Shown here: piece by piece, positions 31,844-44,094 of the stretch
How the letters are laid out: the number at the start of each line of letters is the position of its first letter
Position numbering within the stretch: the first letter of the stretch is position 1
DNA from: Candidatus Jordarchaeia archaeon
GTDB taxonomy: Archaea; Asgardarchaeota; Jordiarchaeia; Jordiarchaeales; Jordiarchaeaceae
DNA: 45,646 bases
Assembly (NCBI GenBank): GCA_018383815.1
Contig: JAHAWU010000010.1
Span: 1 to 45,646 of the forward strand
Reading direction: 5' to 3'
Program-made: the position numbers and the translations under genes
The notes under the pieces: generated by a model
Told to the model about the DNA's origin: nothing
Seen by the model: the letters and a program-made list of their open reading frames with translations, nothing else
Databases searched by the model: none

Positions 31844-32232
31844 CTATTTATCCCTCCAACATAATATTCAAGGCTTCCAACCATATCCTAGTTTGTATTC
31901 TAAATTTCCAGTCCCAAAAAGAGGGGTGCTCTCCATCCTTGCCTAGGGCGCTTTTAAAGGTAATCATTGCTCTAATCACACCTCTCTTCCGGGGGAAAAT
32001 GAAAGATACGAATATGCATCTTTAAATATTATGAATACGCTTAATAGTTATTTAAATCTAATCTTGAAACCTTAAATATATGCTTGTTAGATAAAAAGAG
32101 CATCCCTGAATGGTAGGCCCTAAAAATGGTGTAAACCTGGAAAAGAACAAAATGAGAAAAAAATGTGTATTGATAGTAATTAATTAAATGGGTGGTAGTG
32201 GATTAGTAGTAAGGATTTGAGAGGTGGTTGGA
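31844..32232. promoter_or_regulatory. Divergent promoter region, UPF0261 operon / OYE-type gene
   Basis: About 389 bases without a gene. Three CTTTAAATA/TTTAAAT-like boxes lie near 32020-32085 (CATCTTTAAATATTATG, AGTTATTTAAATC, CCTTAAATATATGC). Their near-palindromic A/T cores can serve either strand, making this a likely shared regulatory zone. GAGGTGG at 32221-32227 is the ribosome site of the plus-strand gene. Confidence 0.4.
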
Positions 32233-34179
32233 ATGCCTGTTTTCAAAAAACTATTTGAACCCATAAAAATTGGGAGAATGGAGCTAAAAAACAGGATTGT
32301 CATGCCGGCCATGTGCTCCAAGTTTGGCACAGAGCTGGGAGCTGTAAACCAGAGGCTCATCGACTACTATGTTGAGAGAGCAAAGGGTGGAGTCGGCCTC
32401 ATAATAATTGAGAATACATGCATTGAGTGGCCCAGGGGGAAGGCTGGAGCAAGCCCAATAAGAATAGACGACTGGAAGTACGTTAGCGGTCTACACGACC
32501 TAGCAGAGGCCGTGCACTCCTACGATGCAAAAATTGCCACTCAACTACACCACACCGGAAGACAAAACTCTACGTTATGCACTGAGGGAGTAGAGCTTGT
32601 CGCCCCCTCACCCATACCATGCGCCGCAATGGGGGGCGAAATGCCCCGAGAACTGACCACGGAAGAGGTGGAACAATTGATTGACAAGTATGTTCAGGGA
32701 GCTCATAGAACACTATCTGCTGATTTCGACGCTGTAGAGCTTCACGGAGCTCACGGTTACCTCATAAGCCAATTTATGTCTCCCCTCACAAACAAGAGGC
32801 AGGACAAGTACGGTGGAGACTTCGAAGGACGCATGAGGTTCCCCCTCGAAATAATCGAGAGAATAAAAGCCATAGTGGGTCCCGATTTTCCAATAATATT
32901 CAGAATCAGCGGGGACGAGTACATAAAAGGCGGACTCACCATAGAGGACACCAAAAAAATCGCCAAAAGACTGGAAGAGGCAGGTGTACACTGCATTAGC
33001 GTCTCAGCAGGAATCTATGAATCTGAACCCTCCTGGTTTGCTAAAATTTATCCCCCTTCTGCCATGCCCAAGGGCTGCTATGTTCCCCTCGCTGAGGCAA
33101 TAAAAAGCGTGGTAAAAATCCCAGTTATCGTGGTGGGAAGACTCAGCGACCCCATACTCGCCGAGAAAGTACTGCAGGAGGGTAAGGCTGACCTCATAGC
33201 CATGGGTAGAGGATTGCTCGCAGACCCCTATTTACCGCAGAAAATAGCTGAGAATAGATTGGAGGATATTAATCCCTGCATCTACTGCAACCAAGGTTGC
33301 TACGGAAACCTTTTCAAAATGTGGAGCATACAGTGCGACGTTAACCCCGCACTGGGACAAGAGAGGGAATTCCAGATAGAGCCCGCCAGCGAGGTGAAAA
33401 AAGTTATGGTGGTGGGTGGAGGACCAGCAGGCATGGAGGCAGCACGAGTTTTAGCCCTTCGAGGACACAGGGTCACCCTATATGAAAAGGAGGGAGAATT
33501 AGGGGGACAGATCAGGGCTGGCTCTGTAGCAAGCTTCAAAGAACCAGTAGGAGACCTATTAAACTACTTCCGAACACAGTTGAGCAAGCTAAACGTAAAA
33601 GTAGAACTAAATGTTGAGGTGGACGCTAAACTGGTAAGTAAAGTGAAGCCCGATGTATTGGTTGTGGCTACGGGTGCAGTGCCTATTATTCCGGATGTGC
33701 CCGGTGTCGGTGGAGAAAATGTGGTTTTGGCAACTGATGTCTTGCTGGGGCGAAAATCTGTGGGTGAGCGTGTGGTTGTGATTGGTGGCGGCGAAGTCGG
33801 GGTGGAGGTCGCCATTCACCTTGCGGAGAAGGGGAAGAAGGTTTGCATAATTGAGAAGGGGTTTGCCCTTCTTCTAGAATTGAACACTGTTAATCGCCTG
33901 TATCTTCTTTGGAGATTGGCTCAGCTGGGAGTAGAAACAATCATTATGGCCACGGTTAAAGAGATAAAGAAAGACTCTGTAGTTATAGATAGGGCGGGCA
34001 AAACCGAAGAGATTAAGGCGGACAACGTTGTGCTGGCTGTAGGCTTCAAGCCAAACAGGGAACTTTTGGAAAAATTGAAGACCACAAACATACCAGTTTA
34101 CGAGATAGGCGACTGCAAAAAAATAGGTAGGCTTAAGGGAGCAATCCATGGAGGCTCAATTATTGCAAGGAGAATATAG
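32233..34179 (+). CDS. Old Yellow Enzyme family reductase, dienoyl-CoA-reductase/TMADH type
   Basis: A three-domain flavoprotein. An FMN TIM barrel (LFEPIKIGRMELKNRIVMPA; ELHGAHGYLISQF with active-site His residues) is followed by a 4Fe-4S site at C349, C352, C356 and C368. An FAD/NAD(P) domain pair (VMVVGGGPAGMEAARVL; VVVIGGGEVGVEVAIHL) completes it. Relatives reduce 2,4-dienoyl-CoA or other enones, or demethylate amines; the substrate here is unknown. The length of 648 is normal. ATG 32233 follows GAGGTGG by 5 bases. Base use changes abruptly near 33640 from A/C-rich to G/T-rich on the coding strand. It is divergent from the UPF0261 operon. Confidence 0.87.
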   Translation: MPVFKKLFEPIKIGRMELKNRIVMPAMCSKFGTELGAVNQRLIDYYVERAKGGVGLIIIENTCIEWPRGKAGASPIRIDDWKYVSGLHDLAEAVHSYDAKIATQLHHTGRQNSTLCTEGVELVAPSPIPCAAMGGEMPRELTTEEVEQLIDKYVQGAHRTLSADFDAVELHGAHGYLISQFMSPLTNKRQDKYGGDFEGRMRFPLEIIERIKAIVGPDFPIIFRISGDEYIKGGLTIEDTKKIAKRLEEAGVHCISVSAGIYESEPSWFAKIYPPSAMPKGCYVPLAEAIKSVVKIPVIVVGRLSDPILAEKVLQEGKADLIAMGRGLLADPYLPQKIAENRLEDINPCIYCNQGCYGNLFKMWSIQCDVNPALGQEREFQIEPASEVKKVMVVGGGPAGMEAARVLALRGHRVTLYEKEGELGGQIRAGSVASFKEPVGDLLNYFRTQLSKLNVKVELNVEVDAKLVSKVKPDVLVVATGAVPIIPDVPGVGGENVVLATDVLLGRKSVGERVVVIGGGEVGVEVAIHLAEKGKKVCIIEKGFALLLELNTVNRLYLLWRLAQLGVETIIMATVKEIKKDSVVIDRAGKTEEIKADNVVLAVGFKPNRELLEKLKTTNIPVYEIGDCKKIGRLKGAIHGGSIIARRI

Positions 34180-39965: not shown

Positions 39966-40182
39966 CTAATCACCCTCTAACCGTTCCAAATCATGTTAAT
40001 GAATTATTCCTCACTGTTTACTAATAAAGTTTTAACCAAAAATGAATTTTCGGACTTGCAAAATGTTTATTATATTCTTAGTTGAATTAAAATGCTTAAA
40101 AGTCGTTGTTTTTCGATTAAATGGAGAGAATGTGTAGTTGTTTGATGAGGGAGACTAAAATTAGTTGTTCCTAGGTGGTTTG

Positions 40183-43155
40183 ATGAATGCGCTTAAAGAG
40201 TTGAAAAGTAACTTTTCGATTGGAATGTTTAAGCTTTCGTTGAGACTGATGGGGTTACTGTTCAGGATAAGTCCTAAGCTGCGTAAGGAGGTTTACAACA
40301 AGGAGACGGGTTTCATTTTCAATGCGAAGTACCAGTTTAAGACTCGCGACGGCAAAGTTAACATCTATGTGGTTTTTAAAGATGGCAAAATGAAGGTAAG
40401 TGACGGGGTTATTGATAATCCCAACATTACCATTTATTACAAGGATAAGGAGACCATGGCTAAAATCTGGAATAAGAGTCCTGAGGAATCCCTCAACTAT
40501 CTCTTAACCAACGAGATGAATTATGTGGGGAACATGGCTTACCTCACCAAGTTCTCCTACATGACCACAGTAATTAAGGGAGCAAAAATAAAGGGCTACA
40601 AGGGTCCTGGAAACAGGTTGCTCTACCCCATAGGGGACATTGATAAGGAGAAGAGGAAACGCCTCCAAAACGAGATACTGGGCCGAAAGGTTGACAACGT
40701 AAAGTTTCTTGAAGACCCCTACCTTGGGAAGTATTCTATTGATGATTTTCCACGCCTAAAATACCTGAAGAACCGCCGCTACGCCCTTAAACCCGCAATT
40801 TGTGTGGAAAGAGCCAAGCTTCTCACAGAGTACCACAGAGAGAACGGCTTCGAAGTTGACAAGAATGGAAAGCCTATTGACCCTGAACTCCGCCAAGCAA
40901 AGGCACTATATCACATATTGACCAACCGCAAACCCATAATCCACGACCAATACCTCATTCCCGGCTCCACAACCACCAAGGAGGTGGGCATACCCATCTA
41001 TCCCGAACTGATAGGAACCGCCATCTGGCCAGAATTGAGGACGATATATAAGAGGGAGCTCAACCCCAACGACATTTCTCCCCAGGATGCAGACATTCTA
41101 AACTTTGAAGTGTTCCCCTACTGGATGGATAGGAATGTGCGGGAATACTGCAGGCAAAAGTATGGAAACCCAATCTCCCAACAGTTGGAAGAGCGGTTCG
41201 TCCTATACTTCATGATGAAGAACAACGCCATATCCCACACTGTTCCCGGACTCCCCAAAGTACTAACTCTGGGATTTGAAAAAATCAGGGAAGAAGCGGC
41301 TCAAAAAGAGAAGGAGGCCAAATCTCCAGAGAAGAAGAACTTCTACAAGGCTGTCCAAATAGTGATTGATGGGGTTTTAAACCACGCCAAAAACCTAAGC
41401 AAGGAAGCTCTGAGAATTGCGGAAACCCTAGACCCCAACGATCCCCAGCAGGCCAGAAGAATAGAGGAGCTGAAGGAAATTTCCAGAATTTGCGCCAAGG
41501 TGCCAGCAAAGCCCGCGGAAACCATGCATGAGGCACTAACTTCCCTCTGGATTACCTGGACCTGCATTCACAGTGAAAACGCTAATTCCGCCATGTCCAT
41601 TGGAAGACTGGACCAGATGCTTCAACCCTACTTTGAAAAGGAAATGTCCCAGGCAAAAACAGACAAAGAGAGAGAAGAAATAATAAAAAGAGCCATAGAG
41701 TTGGTGGGGCACTTCTTCCTCAGGATTAACGACCACGACCCACTGGTGCCCAGCGTGGGAAACAAACTTTTTGGCGGCAGCTCCTCAGACGACACCGTAA
41801 CCGTGGGAGGAGTAGACAGAGAGGGAAAAAACGCAGTAAACGACATGACCTACATTATCCTCAAAGTGGCGGAGATGCTATGCTTCCAAGACCCCAACAT
41901 GAACGCCCGATACTACACGGGAATAAACTCTAAGGAGTACTTGAGACGTCTATGTGAAGTTAACATTAACATGGTTGCCTCACCCTCCATCCACAACGAT
42001 AAGGCAATGATTGAAGCCCTAGTCCACCAGGGAATCCCCATAGAAGACGCAAGAGACTGGGCGGCCACCGGCTGCGTGGAGCCCACAATAGTGGGAAAAC
42101 ACTTCGGCCACACCAACTGCATGCTCCTAAACCTTGTCGCCCCCCTGGAAATGGCCCTCAACAATGGAGTACACCCAGTAATGGGAGAAAAAATAGGTCC
42201 AGAAACTGGAGATGTTAGAAACTCATTTGACACCTTTGAAGACTTCCTCAACGCCTACAAAACACAGCTAAGATACCTGGCCGAAAAATCTATCGAAATA
42301 AACAATTACCTAGGATATGCACACCAATACATACATCCCACTCCCCTGCTCTCGTCACTATTTGAGGGCTGCTTGGAGAAAGGCACAGATGTAGTCAATG
42401 GAGGAGCTATCTACAACACTTCCGGAGTAGCGTTAGTTTCACTGACCGATGTGGTGGACAGCCTACTGGTCATAAGGGATTTAATCTATAAAAAGAAGGT
42501 TCTAGATTGGCCAACCCTAATGAACGCACTGGAAAACAATTTTGAGAATGGAACCGAGGAAGTCCTACGCAAAATCCAGAAGGTTCCCAAGTTCGGCTCA
42601 GATGAGCCTGGAACCAATGAGGTAGCCCAAGACCTAATAGATTACTGCTTTGACCTATACAATCCAGCCAAAAACTATCGTGGAGGAAACTATCTCGTAG
42701 GATACTGGTCCATAAGTTACCACGTGGGTTTCGGCATGCTCTCTGGAGCCCTACCCTCAGGGAGAAAGAAGGGGAAAGCCTTCACGCCCGGATTGACCCC
42801 CGCGCCTGGTCCCTCAGACCAGCTGCTCCAGAACATCCGCTCAATAGCGAGCATGAACTATCTGAAAATGCCTAACAATGCCTCCTACAATGTGAAGCTT
42901 GTGCCACACTCAGGAGATTCGCACAAGAAAACACTCGACTTGTTCACTAGCTATGTTCAGAGCTTCTTTGACCTGGGAGGAATGCAGTGGCAATTCAACG
43001 TAATAACGTCAGACACACTGAGAGACGCTATGAAAAATCCTGACGATTACCGCTGGCTGCTGGTTCGAGTATCAGGATACAATGCCTACTTTGTAAAATT
43101 GAACAAGAACATGCAGCAGGAAATAATTGAGAGGACAGAGTTCTGCGCAAGATAA
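40183..43155 (+). CDS. Glycyl radical enzyme with N-terminal SCP2-like domain
   Basis: The main part (from about 190) is a PFL/glycyl-radical-type enzyme. The catalytic Cys and its neighbour appear as GCVEP (C631, E633), as in dehydratases and lyases such as CutC and glycerol dehydratase. The radical Gly is G965 within RVSGYNAYFVKLN, 26 residues from the end. The first 130 residues form a separate SCP2-like lipid-binding domain (VYVV-type strands, GKMKVSDGVIDNPNITI, and YVGNMAYLTKF). That fusion is uncommon among known family members. ATG 40183 follows AGGTGG at 4-base spacing. The activating enzyme follows 39 bases later, so it is active only without oxygen. The substrate may be lipophilic; that is inference. 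Confidence 0.85.
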   Translation: MNALKELKSNFSIGMFKLSLRLMGLLFRISPKLRKEVYNKETGFIFNAKYQFKTRDGKVNIYVVFKDGKMKVSDGVIDNPNITIYYKDKETMAKIWNKSPEESLNYLLTNEMNYVGNMAYLTKFSYMTTVIKGAKIKGYKGPGNRLLYPIGDIDKEKRKRLQNEILGRKVDNVKFLEDPYLGKYSIDDFPRLKYLKNRRYALKPAICVERAKLLTEYHRENGFEVDKNGKPIDPELRQAKALYHILTNRKPIIHDQYLIPGSTTTKEVGIPIYPELIGTAIWPELRTIYKRELNPNDISPQDADILNFEVFPYWMDRNVREYCRQKYGNPISQQLEERFVLYFMMKNNAISHTVPGLPKVLTLGFEKIREEAAQKEKEAKSPEKKNFYKAVQIVIDGVLNHAKNLSKEALRIAETLDPNDPQQARRIEELKEISRICAKVPAKPAETMHEALTSLWITWTCIHSENANSAMSIGRLDQMLQPYFEKEMSQAKTDKEREEIIKRAIELVGHFFLRINDHDPLVPSVGNKLFGGSSSDDTVTVGGVDREGKNAVNDMTYIILKVAEMLCFQDPNMNARYYTGINSKEYLRRLCEVNINMVASPSIHNDKAMIEALVHQGIPIEDARDWAATGCVEPTIVGKHFGHTNCMLLNLVAPLEMALNNGVHPVMGEKIGPETGDVRNSFDTFEDFLNAYKTQLRYLAEKSIEINNYLGYAHQYIHPTPLLSSLFEGCLEKGTDVVNGGAIYNTSGVALVSLTDVVDSLLVIRDLIYKKKVLDWPTLMNALENNFENGTEEVLRKIQKVPKFGSDEPGTNEVAQDLIDYCFDLYNPAKNYRGGNYLVGYWSISYHVGFGMLSGALPSGRKKGKAFTPGLTPAPGPSDQLLQNIRSIASMNYLKMPNNASYNVKLVPHSGDSHKKTLDLFTSYVQSFFDLGGMQWQFNVITSDTLRDAMKNPDDYRWLLVRVSGYNAYFVKLNKNMQQEIIERTEFCAR

Positions 43156-43194: not shown

Positions 43195-44094
43195 ATGACT
43201 AAGAGAACATTAATAGTGGATATTAAAAGAAACGCGTTGGACGACGGTCCGGGAATACGCACCCTTATTTTCTTTAAGGGATGCCCCCTTTCCTGTGTCT
43301 GGTGCCAAAATCCGGAGACTAAGAGTGCAAATCAGGAAATCGCCTTCTACCGGGAAGACTGTGGAGAATGTGGAAGATGCCTGGAAGCTTGCCAAAGGAA
43401 GGCCATAGACTTCTCCTTCCGGTACCGCATTGACCGCAGTTTATGTAATCTCTGCGGCGAGTGCATAGAGGTGTGTCCCAACGAGGCACTGAAATTTGTG
43501 GGCAGAGAATACCAGATAGGAGAACTGGTGGACATCATATTAAAAGACAAAATTTTCTTCCAGAACTCGGGAGGGGGAGTCACCCTATCGGGCGGAGAAC
43601 CCCTCTACCACATGGAATACGTGAACCAATTATTGAGGGAACTCAAAAAAGAAAACATCCATATCTGCATAGAAACCAGTGGACACTACAACCGCGAAAA
43701 ATTCAACGAATTAGTATTACCCTACGTGGACCTCATTTATTTTGATTTGAAGATATTTGATCCAGAACTACATTTAAAATACTGTGGGGTGAGAAATGAA
43801 AAAATTTTCAGCAATTTCGAAGATTTGGTAAAGAATCAGAAAGTAGAGGTTCTGCCCCGAATCCCACTAATCCCAGATATTACTGCCACAGAAGAAAATC
43901 TAACCAGATTAGCCAACTATTTGAAATCTTTGAGCATAGAAAAAATCGGCTTACTACCCTATAATCCGCTGTGGCTTTCTAAGCCCGAAAAAATCGGAGT
44001 GGAACCAGAATACCACCGCTCAGAATGGCTGAATAACCAGGAAAAAGAAAAAATAAAGACCATCTTCTCGGGTTTTGAATACGAAAATTTTTAA
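43195..44094 (+). CDS. Glycyl radical enzyme activating enzyme (radical SAM)
   Basis: Uses S-adenosylmethionine and a 4Fe-4S cluster to create the glycyl radical on its partner. The radical SAM motif C30-x3-C34-x2-C37 lies in FKGCPLSCVWCQNPE. Two ferredoxin-type clusters are inserted after it (CGECGRCLEAC, CNLCGECIEVCP), typical of activases for dehydratase-type enzymes rather than PflA. GGGVTLSGGEPLYH and ETSGHY follow. About 299 residues. It lies directly downstream of the GRE and in the same direction. Confidence 0.93.
   Translation: MTKRTLIVDIKRNALDDGPGIRTLIFFKGCPLSCVWCQNPETKSANQEIAFYREDCGECGRCLEACQRKAIDFSFRYRIDRSLCNLCGECIEVCPNEALKFVGREYQIGELVDIILKDKIFFQNSGGGVTLSGGEPLYHMEYVNQLLRELKKENIHICIETSGHYNREKFNELVLPYVDLIYFDLKIFDPELHLKYCGVRNEKIFSNFEDLVKNQKVEVLPRIPLIPDITATEENLTRLANYLKSLSIEKIGLLPYNPLWLSKPEKIGVEPEYHRSEWLNNQEKEKIKTIFSGFEYENF

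Follow-up and report, generated by a model that had tools for sequence, protein, structure and literature searches.

The locus described here raises the question of why a glycyl radical enzyme (GRE) should be joined to a domain that resembles the SCP2 lipid-binding fold. It lies in a stretch of 45,646 nucleotides of a Candidatus Jordarchaeia archaeon (contig JAHAWU010000010.1), which was analysed as a whole and is called the window. Characterised GREs cover a limited set of reactions, and to our knowledge none of them carries a lipid-carrier domain. Among about 5.4 million open papers searched, no report of SCP2 tied to a GRE was found; the one match was a fungal genome paper on another subject. 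A preliminary description of this DNA stated that known GREs act mostly on small polar compounds. Some known GREs, BSS and MasD, already take hydrophobic substrates.

The gene starts with an ATG at position 40183 and ends with a stop codon at 43153-43155 of the plus strand; an in-frame TTG upstream, at 40165, would add 6 residues if it were the start. All the hallmarks of the GRE superfamily are present in or next to the 990-residue product (Table 1): the barrel, the Cys loop (ATGCVEP, residues 628-634), the C-terminal glycine radical loop and a cognate radical SAM activase, which begins 39 bases past the GRE stop codon. The earlier claim of an intact GRE with GCVEP and a C-terminal radical glycine is borne out by the PF02901 and PF01228 matches and by the positions of the catalytic Cys631 and Glu633 and the radical Gly965 within residues 190-990. 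A 98% identical copy of the gene is found in a second species of the same genus, and the closest named records are those of Jordarchaeia RPF2 (98%) and Njordarchaeum GB_154 (84%). An artefact or a chimaeric contig is ruled out by the 98% copy and by the many full-length homologs across two domains of life. The full-length AF2 model has a mean pLDDT of 65 and a poorly predicted barrel, and no placement of SCP2 with respect to the active site was read from it.

Table 1. Features of the SCP2-GRE gene and of the adjacent activase gene in the window.
Feature	Position	Strand	Evidence
SCP2-like domain, residues 1-133	40183..40581	+	AF2 model, Foldseek, weak Pfam SCP2 match; homologous to stand-alone downstream genes of relatives
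Linker, residues 134-189, pLDDT low in part	40582..40749	+	
PFL-like GRE barrel, residues 192-851	40756..42735	+	PF02901, E 1.5e-169
Cys loop G630-C631-V632-E633-P634	42070..42084	+	Cys and Glu invariant across the SCP2-linked clade (alignments)
Glycine radical domain, residues 868-971	42784..43095	+	PF01228, E 7.9e-23
RVSGYNAYF (residues 962-970), radical Gly965 at 43075-43077	43066..43092	+	Aligns with Gly763 of glycerol dehydratase
Radical SAM activase with 4Fe-4S insert	43195..44094	+	TIGR02494, 295.7 bits against a cut-off of 174; Radical_SAM, Fer4

The N-terminal domain is divergent in sequence. A sequence search of the PDB gave no match to it, and the fold search alone succeeded. Pfam PF02036 aligns with residues 47-125 at an E value of 0.0048 and 17.6 bits, under the gathering score of 21.3; it is matched by 15 of 27 homologous N-termini (best E 6e-4) and is the commonest match among those 27. 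For residues 1-165 alone, AF2 gave a model with a mean pLDDT of 81 and block means of 80-96 across residues 1-130, which displays a long helix and an SCP2-like order of alpha and beta elements. When this model was compared with the PDB using Foldseek, UbiJ-SCP2 was the top match (E 5.5e-6, prob 1.00), and the other best hits were to AF1534, to human SCP2 and to alkylsulfatases, SdsA1 among them, which carry an SCP2-like domain at the C-terminus. As modelled, the domain is a divergent SCP2 member recognised by its fold, and the prediction made earlier for the first ~130 residues held when the structure was modelled. In SdsA1 and UbiJ, as proposed for the window protein, an SCP2-like fold serves an enzyme with a long-chain or lipid substrate, although the catalytic domains are unrelated. 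The fold can also be read differently. SCP2 domains may act as ligand-free scaffolds, which counts against a lipid substrate, and UbiJ, the best fold match, belongs to a multi-enzyme complex. The domain could then be a mere docking module for dimerisation or for organising a complex, attached to an enzyme with a small polar substrate. UbiJ itself, however, acts in a lipid pathway.

The relationships of the GRE were examined in two trees, one of 86 and one of 43 proteins, in which the reference enzymes were identified by PDB alignments, annotated records or NCBIfam, and from which HPAD is absent. The GREs linked to SCP2 fall together in one clade, and no characterised enzyme lies within it (support 100 and 100/100 in the larger and smaller tree, respectively). 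The best trees do not show the tight grouping with a characterised small-substrate clade that would have spoken against the preliminary description, and joint clades with CutC (AU p 0.0075) and with glycerol and propanediol dehydratase (p 0.0066) are rejected. HypD and IslA/HpsG lie apart from the SCP2 clade in the best trees, with joint-clade AU p values of 0.075 and 0.087 that are above formal rejection. The window GRE scores far below the cut-offs of all the NCBIfam equivalogs compared, CutC, HypD, HpsG, HPAD, IAD and PFL; its highest score is 430 bits, where the cut-offs are 1000 or more. HypD and CutC are eliminase-type GREs with related activases, as the window enzyme appears to be, but their models give it 430 and 415 bits against cut-offs of 1100 and 1050. 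The best score of the window activase is to the HypD activase model, 304 against a cut-off of 425. Dehydratases and lyases that take small substrates are the best-scoring GRE profile families, as would suit a small polar substrate and a docking role for SCP2. The low equivalog scores and the rejected joint clades with CutC and with the glycerol and propanediol dehydratases argue the other way, and a scaffold alone leaves the lipid-type dehydrogenases beside the GREs of relatives unexplained. This explanation is regarded as quite unlikely.

Matches of a profile search that start within the SCP2 part, which give lower bounds, place the fusion in 33 or more of the 228 Asgard genomes. For the class of Desulfatibacillum alkenivorans the figure is at least 46 genomes out of 291, and for that of a Syntrophomonadaceae MAG it is one or two out of 63, where one match lacks the N-terminal end. 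Among named relatives, the full fusion is found in many Lokiarchaeota, in D. alkenivorans DSM 16219, in a Desulfobacterales MAG, in the Syntrophomonadaceae MAG and in others. Archaea and sulfate reducers share enzymes that are 65-75% identical to that of the window, the Desulfobacterales MAG protein being 72% identical. The architecture is not unique to this locus, nor is it confined to archaea. The suggestion that it would be a new twist of archaeal radical chemistry finds no support, as the fusion is equally common in Desulfobacteria and is also carried by a few Bacillota. Proteins of a second fused subfamily (42-45% identical) are present in Desulfatibacillum, Desulfobacterium and their kin, sometimes in tandem copies, and the cultured D. 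alkenivorans has two SCP2 GREs. The tandem genes adjoin in Desulfobacterium-type and other Desulfobacteria genomes (L093 7608-13548, L153 and L155), which suggests duplication that widened the substrate range.

The linkage of SCP2 to this GRE extends beyond the fused proteins. Among the distinct SCP2-linked GREs longer than 700 residues, 77 have an N-terminal SCP2 domain fused and 15 are unfused; one of the 15, L046, is cut at its contig end and was left out of the assessment of neighbors. The unfused members come from Desulfobacteraceae and from two Asgard loci, and a separate SCP2 gene of 135-178 residues lies directly downstream of the GRE gene, followed in most loci by the activase. Such a gene, recognised with a profile built from the fused N-termini, adjoins the GRE in all 14 assessable unfused members, in 13 of them directly and in L190 by a six-frame search that located it beneath an antisense ORF. 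At about 55 loci of other GREs, for which flanking sequence out to about 1.5 kb at most was searched, no SCP2 was detected. SCP2 comes after the GRE when separate and before it when fused, so that the linkage has outlasted a reordering of the two parts. The fused proteins constitute one clade (support 100/100), which fits a single fusion event. A DUF6765 (PF20551) gene is often found near the unfused GRE-SCP2 sets (L056, L057, L059, L184, L186-L188, L191 and L062); in L062 an uncharacterised protein of 816 residues sits between DUF6765 and the GRE.

Cys631, Glu633, Arg475, Asp477 and His352, the equivalent of His164 of glycerol dehydratase, are invariant in the alignment of the SCP2-linked clade, one row of which stops before Gly965. 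Trp842 is also invariant in the clade and was found nowhere else among the compared rows. The glycerol and propanediol dehydratases (PDB 1r8w and 5i2a) share with the window GRE the fold, the Cys-Val-Glu loop, this histidine and the glycine loop, but lack SCP2. Furthermore, His281, Ser282 and Asp447 of glycerol dehydratase, its glycerol-binding residues, are replaced in the SCP2 clade. A glutamate two positions after the cysteine is common to this clade, glycerol and propanediol dehydratases, CutC and HypD. Because it is also present in Archaeoglobus fulgidus PflD, the motif is no proof of elimination.

MasD (9o8u) and TutD (4pkc) are, like the enzymes of the SCP2 clade as proposed here, GREs for hydrophobic substrates from anaerobic sediments. 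The SCP2-linked enzyme might likewise resemble an X-succinate synthase, adding to fumarate an alkane delivered by SCP2. Of the solved structures, 2f3o of A. fulgidus PFL2/PflD matches the window GRE best; this enzyme has been proposed to act as an alkylsuccinate synthase, and Hermodarchaeota GREs resembling it have been named Ass/Bss (PMC8163825). Some carriers of the fusion, such as Desulfatibacillum, degrade alkanes and alkenes. PflD occupies the same broad part of the tree and has a GCVE loop; it lacks SCP2, however, and forms a separate branch, a joint clade with it alone being rejected at AU p 1e-7. A joint clade with BSS and AssA is also rejected (p 0.006). MasD and TutD have a Cys-Met-Ser-Pro loop where the window member has CVEP, and the arginine that binds fumarate (Arg492 in MasD, Arg508 in BSS; PMC12358834), expected at Cys+15, is missing, there being no arginine between C631 and C646. 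No small Fe-S subunit gene is conserved among the GRE neighbors of 80 residues or more, and D. alkenivorans holds MasD/AssA-type genes in addition to its two SCP2 GREs. Alkane addition to fumarate is thus an improbable reaction here. The loop and the missing arginine favor elimination, which, as far as active-site residues can indicate, is probably the chemistry of the clade. Such Asgard GREs should not be called alkylsuccinate synthases. A Guaymas study found pflD and assA hard to separate from other GREs, and some GREs that group with no known enzyme (PMC6258724).

The activase is the sole linked partner in the window. A PIG-L protein, a ferredoxin protein and an alpha/beta hydrolase near the window GRE were considered as partners and rejected, as they have no fixed recurrence beside the GRE in relatives. 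Among the distinct fused loci, 51 of 77 have the activase no more than three genes away, and 28 have a TetR gene on the same strand just upstream. Short-chain dehydrogenase (SDR) proteins lie beside 13 distinct fused loci; an extended and a classical SDR adjoin in some and form a single fused protein of about 624 residues in others, with OleD, a long-chain reductase, and PRK07201 as best NCBIfam matches, both below cut-off. A tungsten aldehyde:ferredoxin oxidoreductase is found beside 11, nearly all from Lokiarchaeia, although these and the Loki counts stem from closely related organisms and do not represent independent events. The presence of SCP2 in all assessable clade members and the lipid-type neighbors in relatives strengthen the earlier argument that SCP2 implies a hydrophobic substrate.

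An enoyl-CoA hydratase lies within three genes of 7 distinct fused loci, and several loci have CoA ligases, acyl-CoA ligases among them, or a CoA transferase nearby. These genes suit the lipid-like substrate proposed below, but they would also suit an eliminase for a hydroxyacyl-CoA or related thioester, all the more since fatty acyl-CoA is a known ligand of SCP2 proteins. These are, however, common genes with scattered links and no fixed operon, and we know of no GRE dehydratase that accepts a CoA thioester; a carrier-linked substrate is therefore considered unlikely. The resemblance of the partner SDR to the OleD (long-chain hydrocarbon synthesis) and HpnA (hopanoid-associated) families could, in turn, indicate that the enzyme remodels or helps to build membrane lipids or hydrocarbons of its own host rather than breaking lipids down. 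This appears very improbable indeed, in view of enzymes so similar in archaea and sulfate reducers despite their differing membrane lipids, of the patchy occurrence, and of the bacterial TetR regulators. The patchy spread, the shared enzymes and TetR form the pattern of an inducible catabolic gene that has moved between species.

It is likely that the substrate is lipid-like. The fuller proposal, an uncharacterised dehydratase-like eliminase acting on a long-chain or lipid-like molecule presented by SCP2, is given about an even chance. Against it stand the replaced glycerol-binding residues and the window itself, where the activase alone is linked. The domains, the intact catalytic residues, the clade, the SCP2 linkage and the neighbor genes are established; the lipid link is supported by context, and lipid binding, elimination, substrate class and pathway direction are inferred. 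In the proposed eliminase, the adjacent radical SAM enzyme would install a radical on Gly965, which would pass to Cys631 inside the buried barrel. SCP2, fused or, in some relatives, a separate neighboring protein, would hold the hydrophobic chain and bring its polar end to the barrel; this end is most likely a hydroxylated carbon, for instance a vicinal diol. There the thiyl of Cys631 would abstract a hydrogen beside the hydroxyl, and Glu633 would assist the leaving of the adjacent group, resulting in a carbonyl product. In bacteria this would be passed to the short-chain dehydrogenases and in Lokiarchaeia perhaps to the aldehyde:ferredoxin oxidoreductase, feeding CoA activation and then beta-oxidation. 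Fatty acid oxidation has been discussed for Jordarchaeia and Sifarchaeia (PMC9723677).

The existence of an SCP2-tied clade, common among Asgard archaea and sulfate reducers, points to lipid-like carbon of sediments being attacked anaerobically in a way so far overlooked, and suggests an unstudied GRE branch that attacks fatty or membrane-derived molecules and not small water-soluble ones. It is possible, although doubtful, that this is the first GRE lineage to take an intact lipid (e.g. alkylglycerols, ether-lipid fragments or long-chain diols) from a carrier domain, shared horizontally between Asgard archaea and sulfate reducers as an oxygen-free route into ether-type or hydroxylated sediment lipids. 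With the cultured D. alkenivorans as a host, the question of the substrate is open to testing now.

The genome of the window contains three more GRE loci (C221:54457-56262, C73:3-1091 and C181:31127-31927), one with a GCVYI Cys loop and two partial at contig ends. Two GRE matches in related Asgard genomes (L008 and L009) run through one stop codon (TGA and TAG, respectively), which is possibly terminal; stop recoding has been reported for Asgard lineages (PMC9723677). A GRE (32% identical) and its activase are plasmid-borne in Moraxella osloensis (AP031477.1, NZ_CP024189.1), an odd host for an oxygen-sensitive enzyme. Elsewhere in the window, positions 32224-34179 encode an Fe-S flavoenzyme like old yellow enzyme and BaiCD (558 bits against a cut-off of 825).
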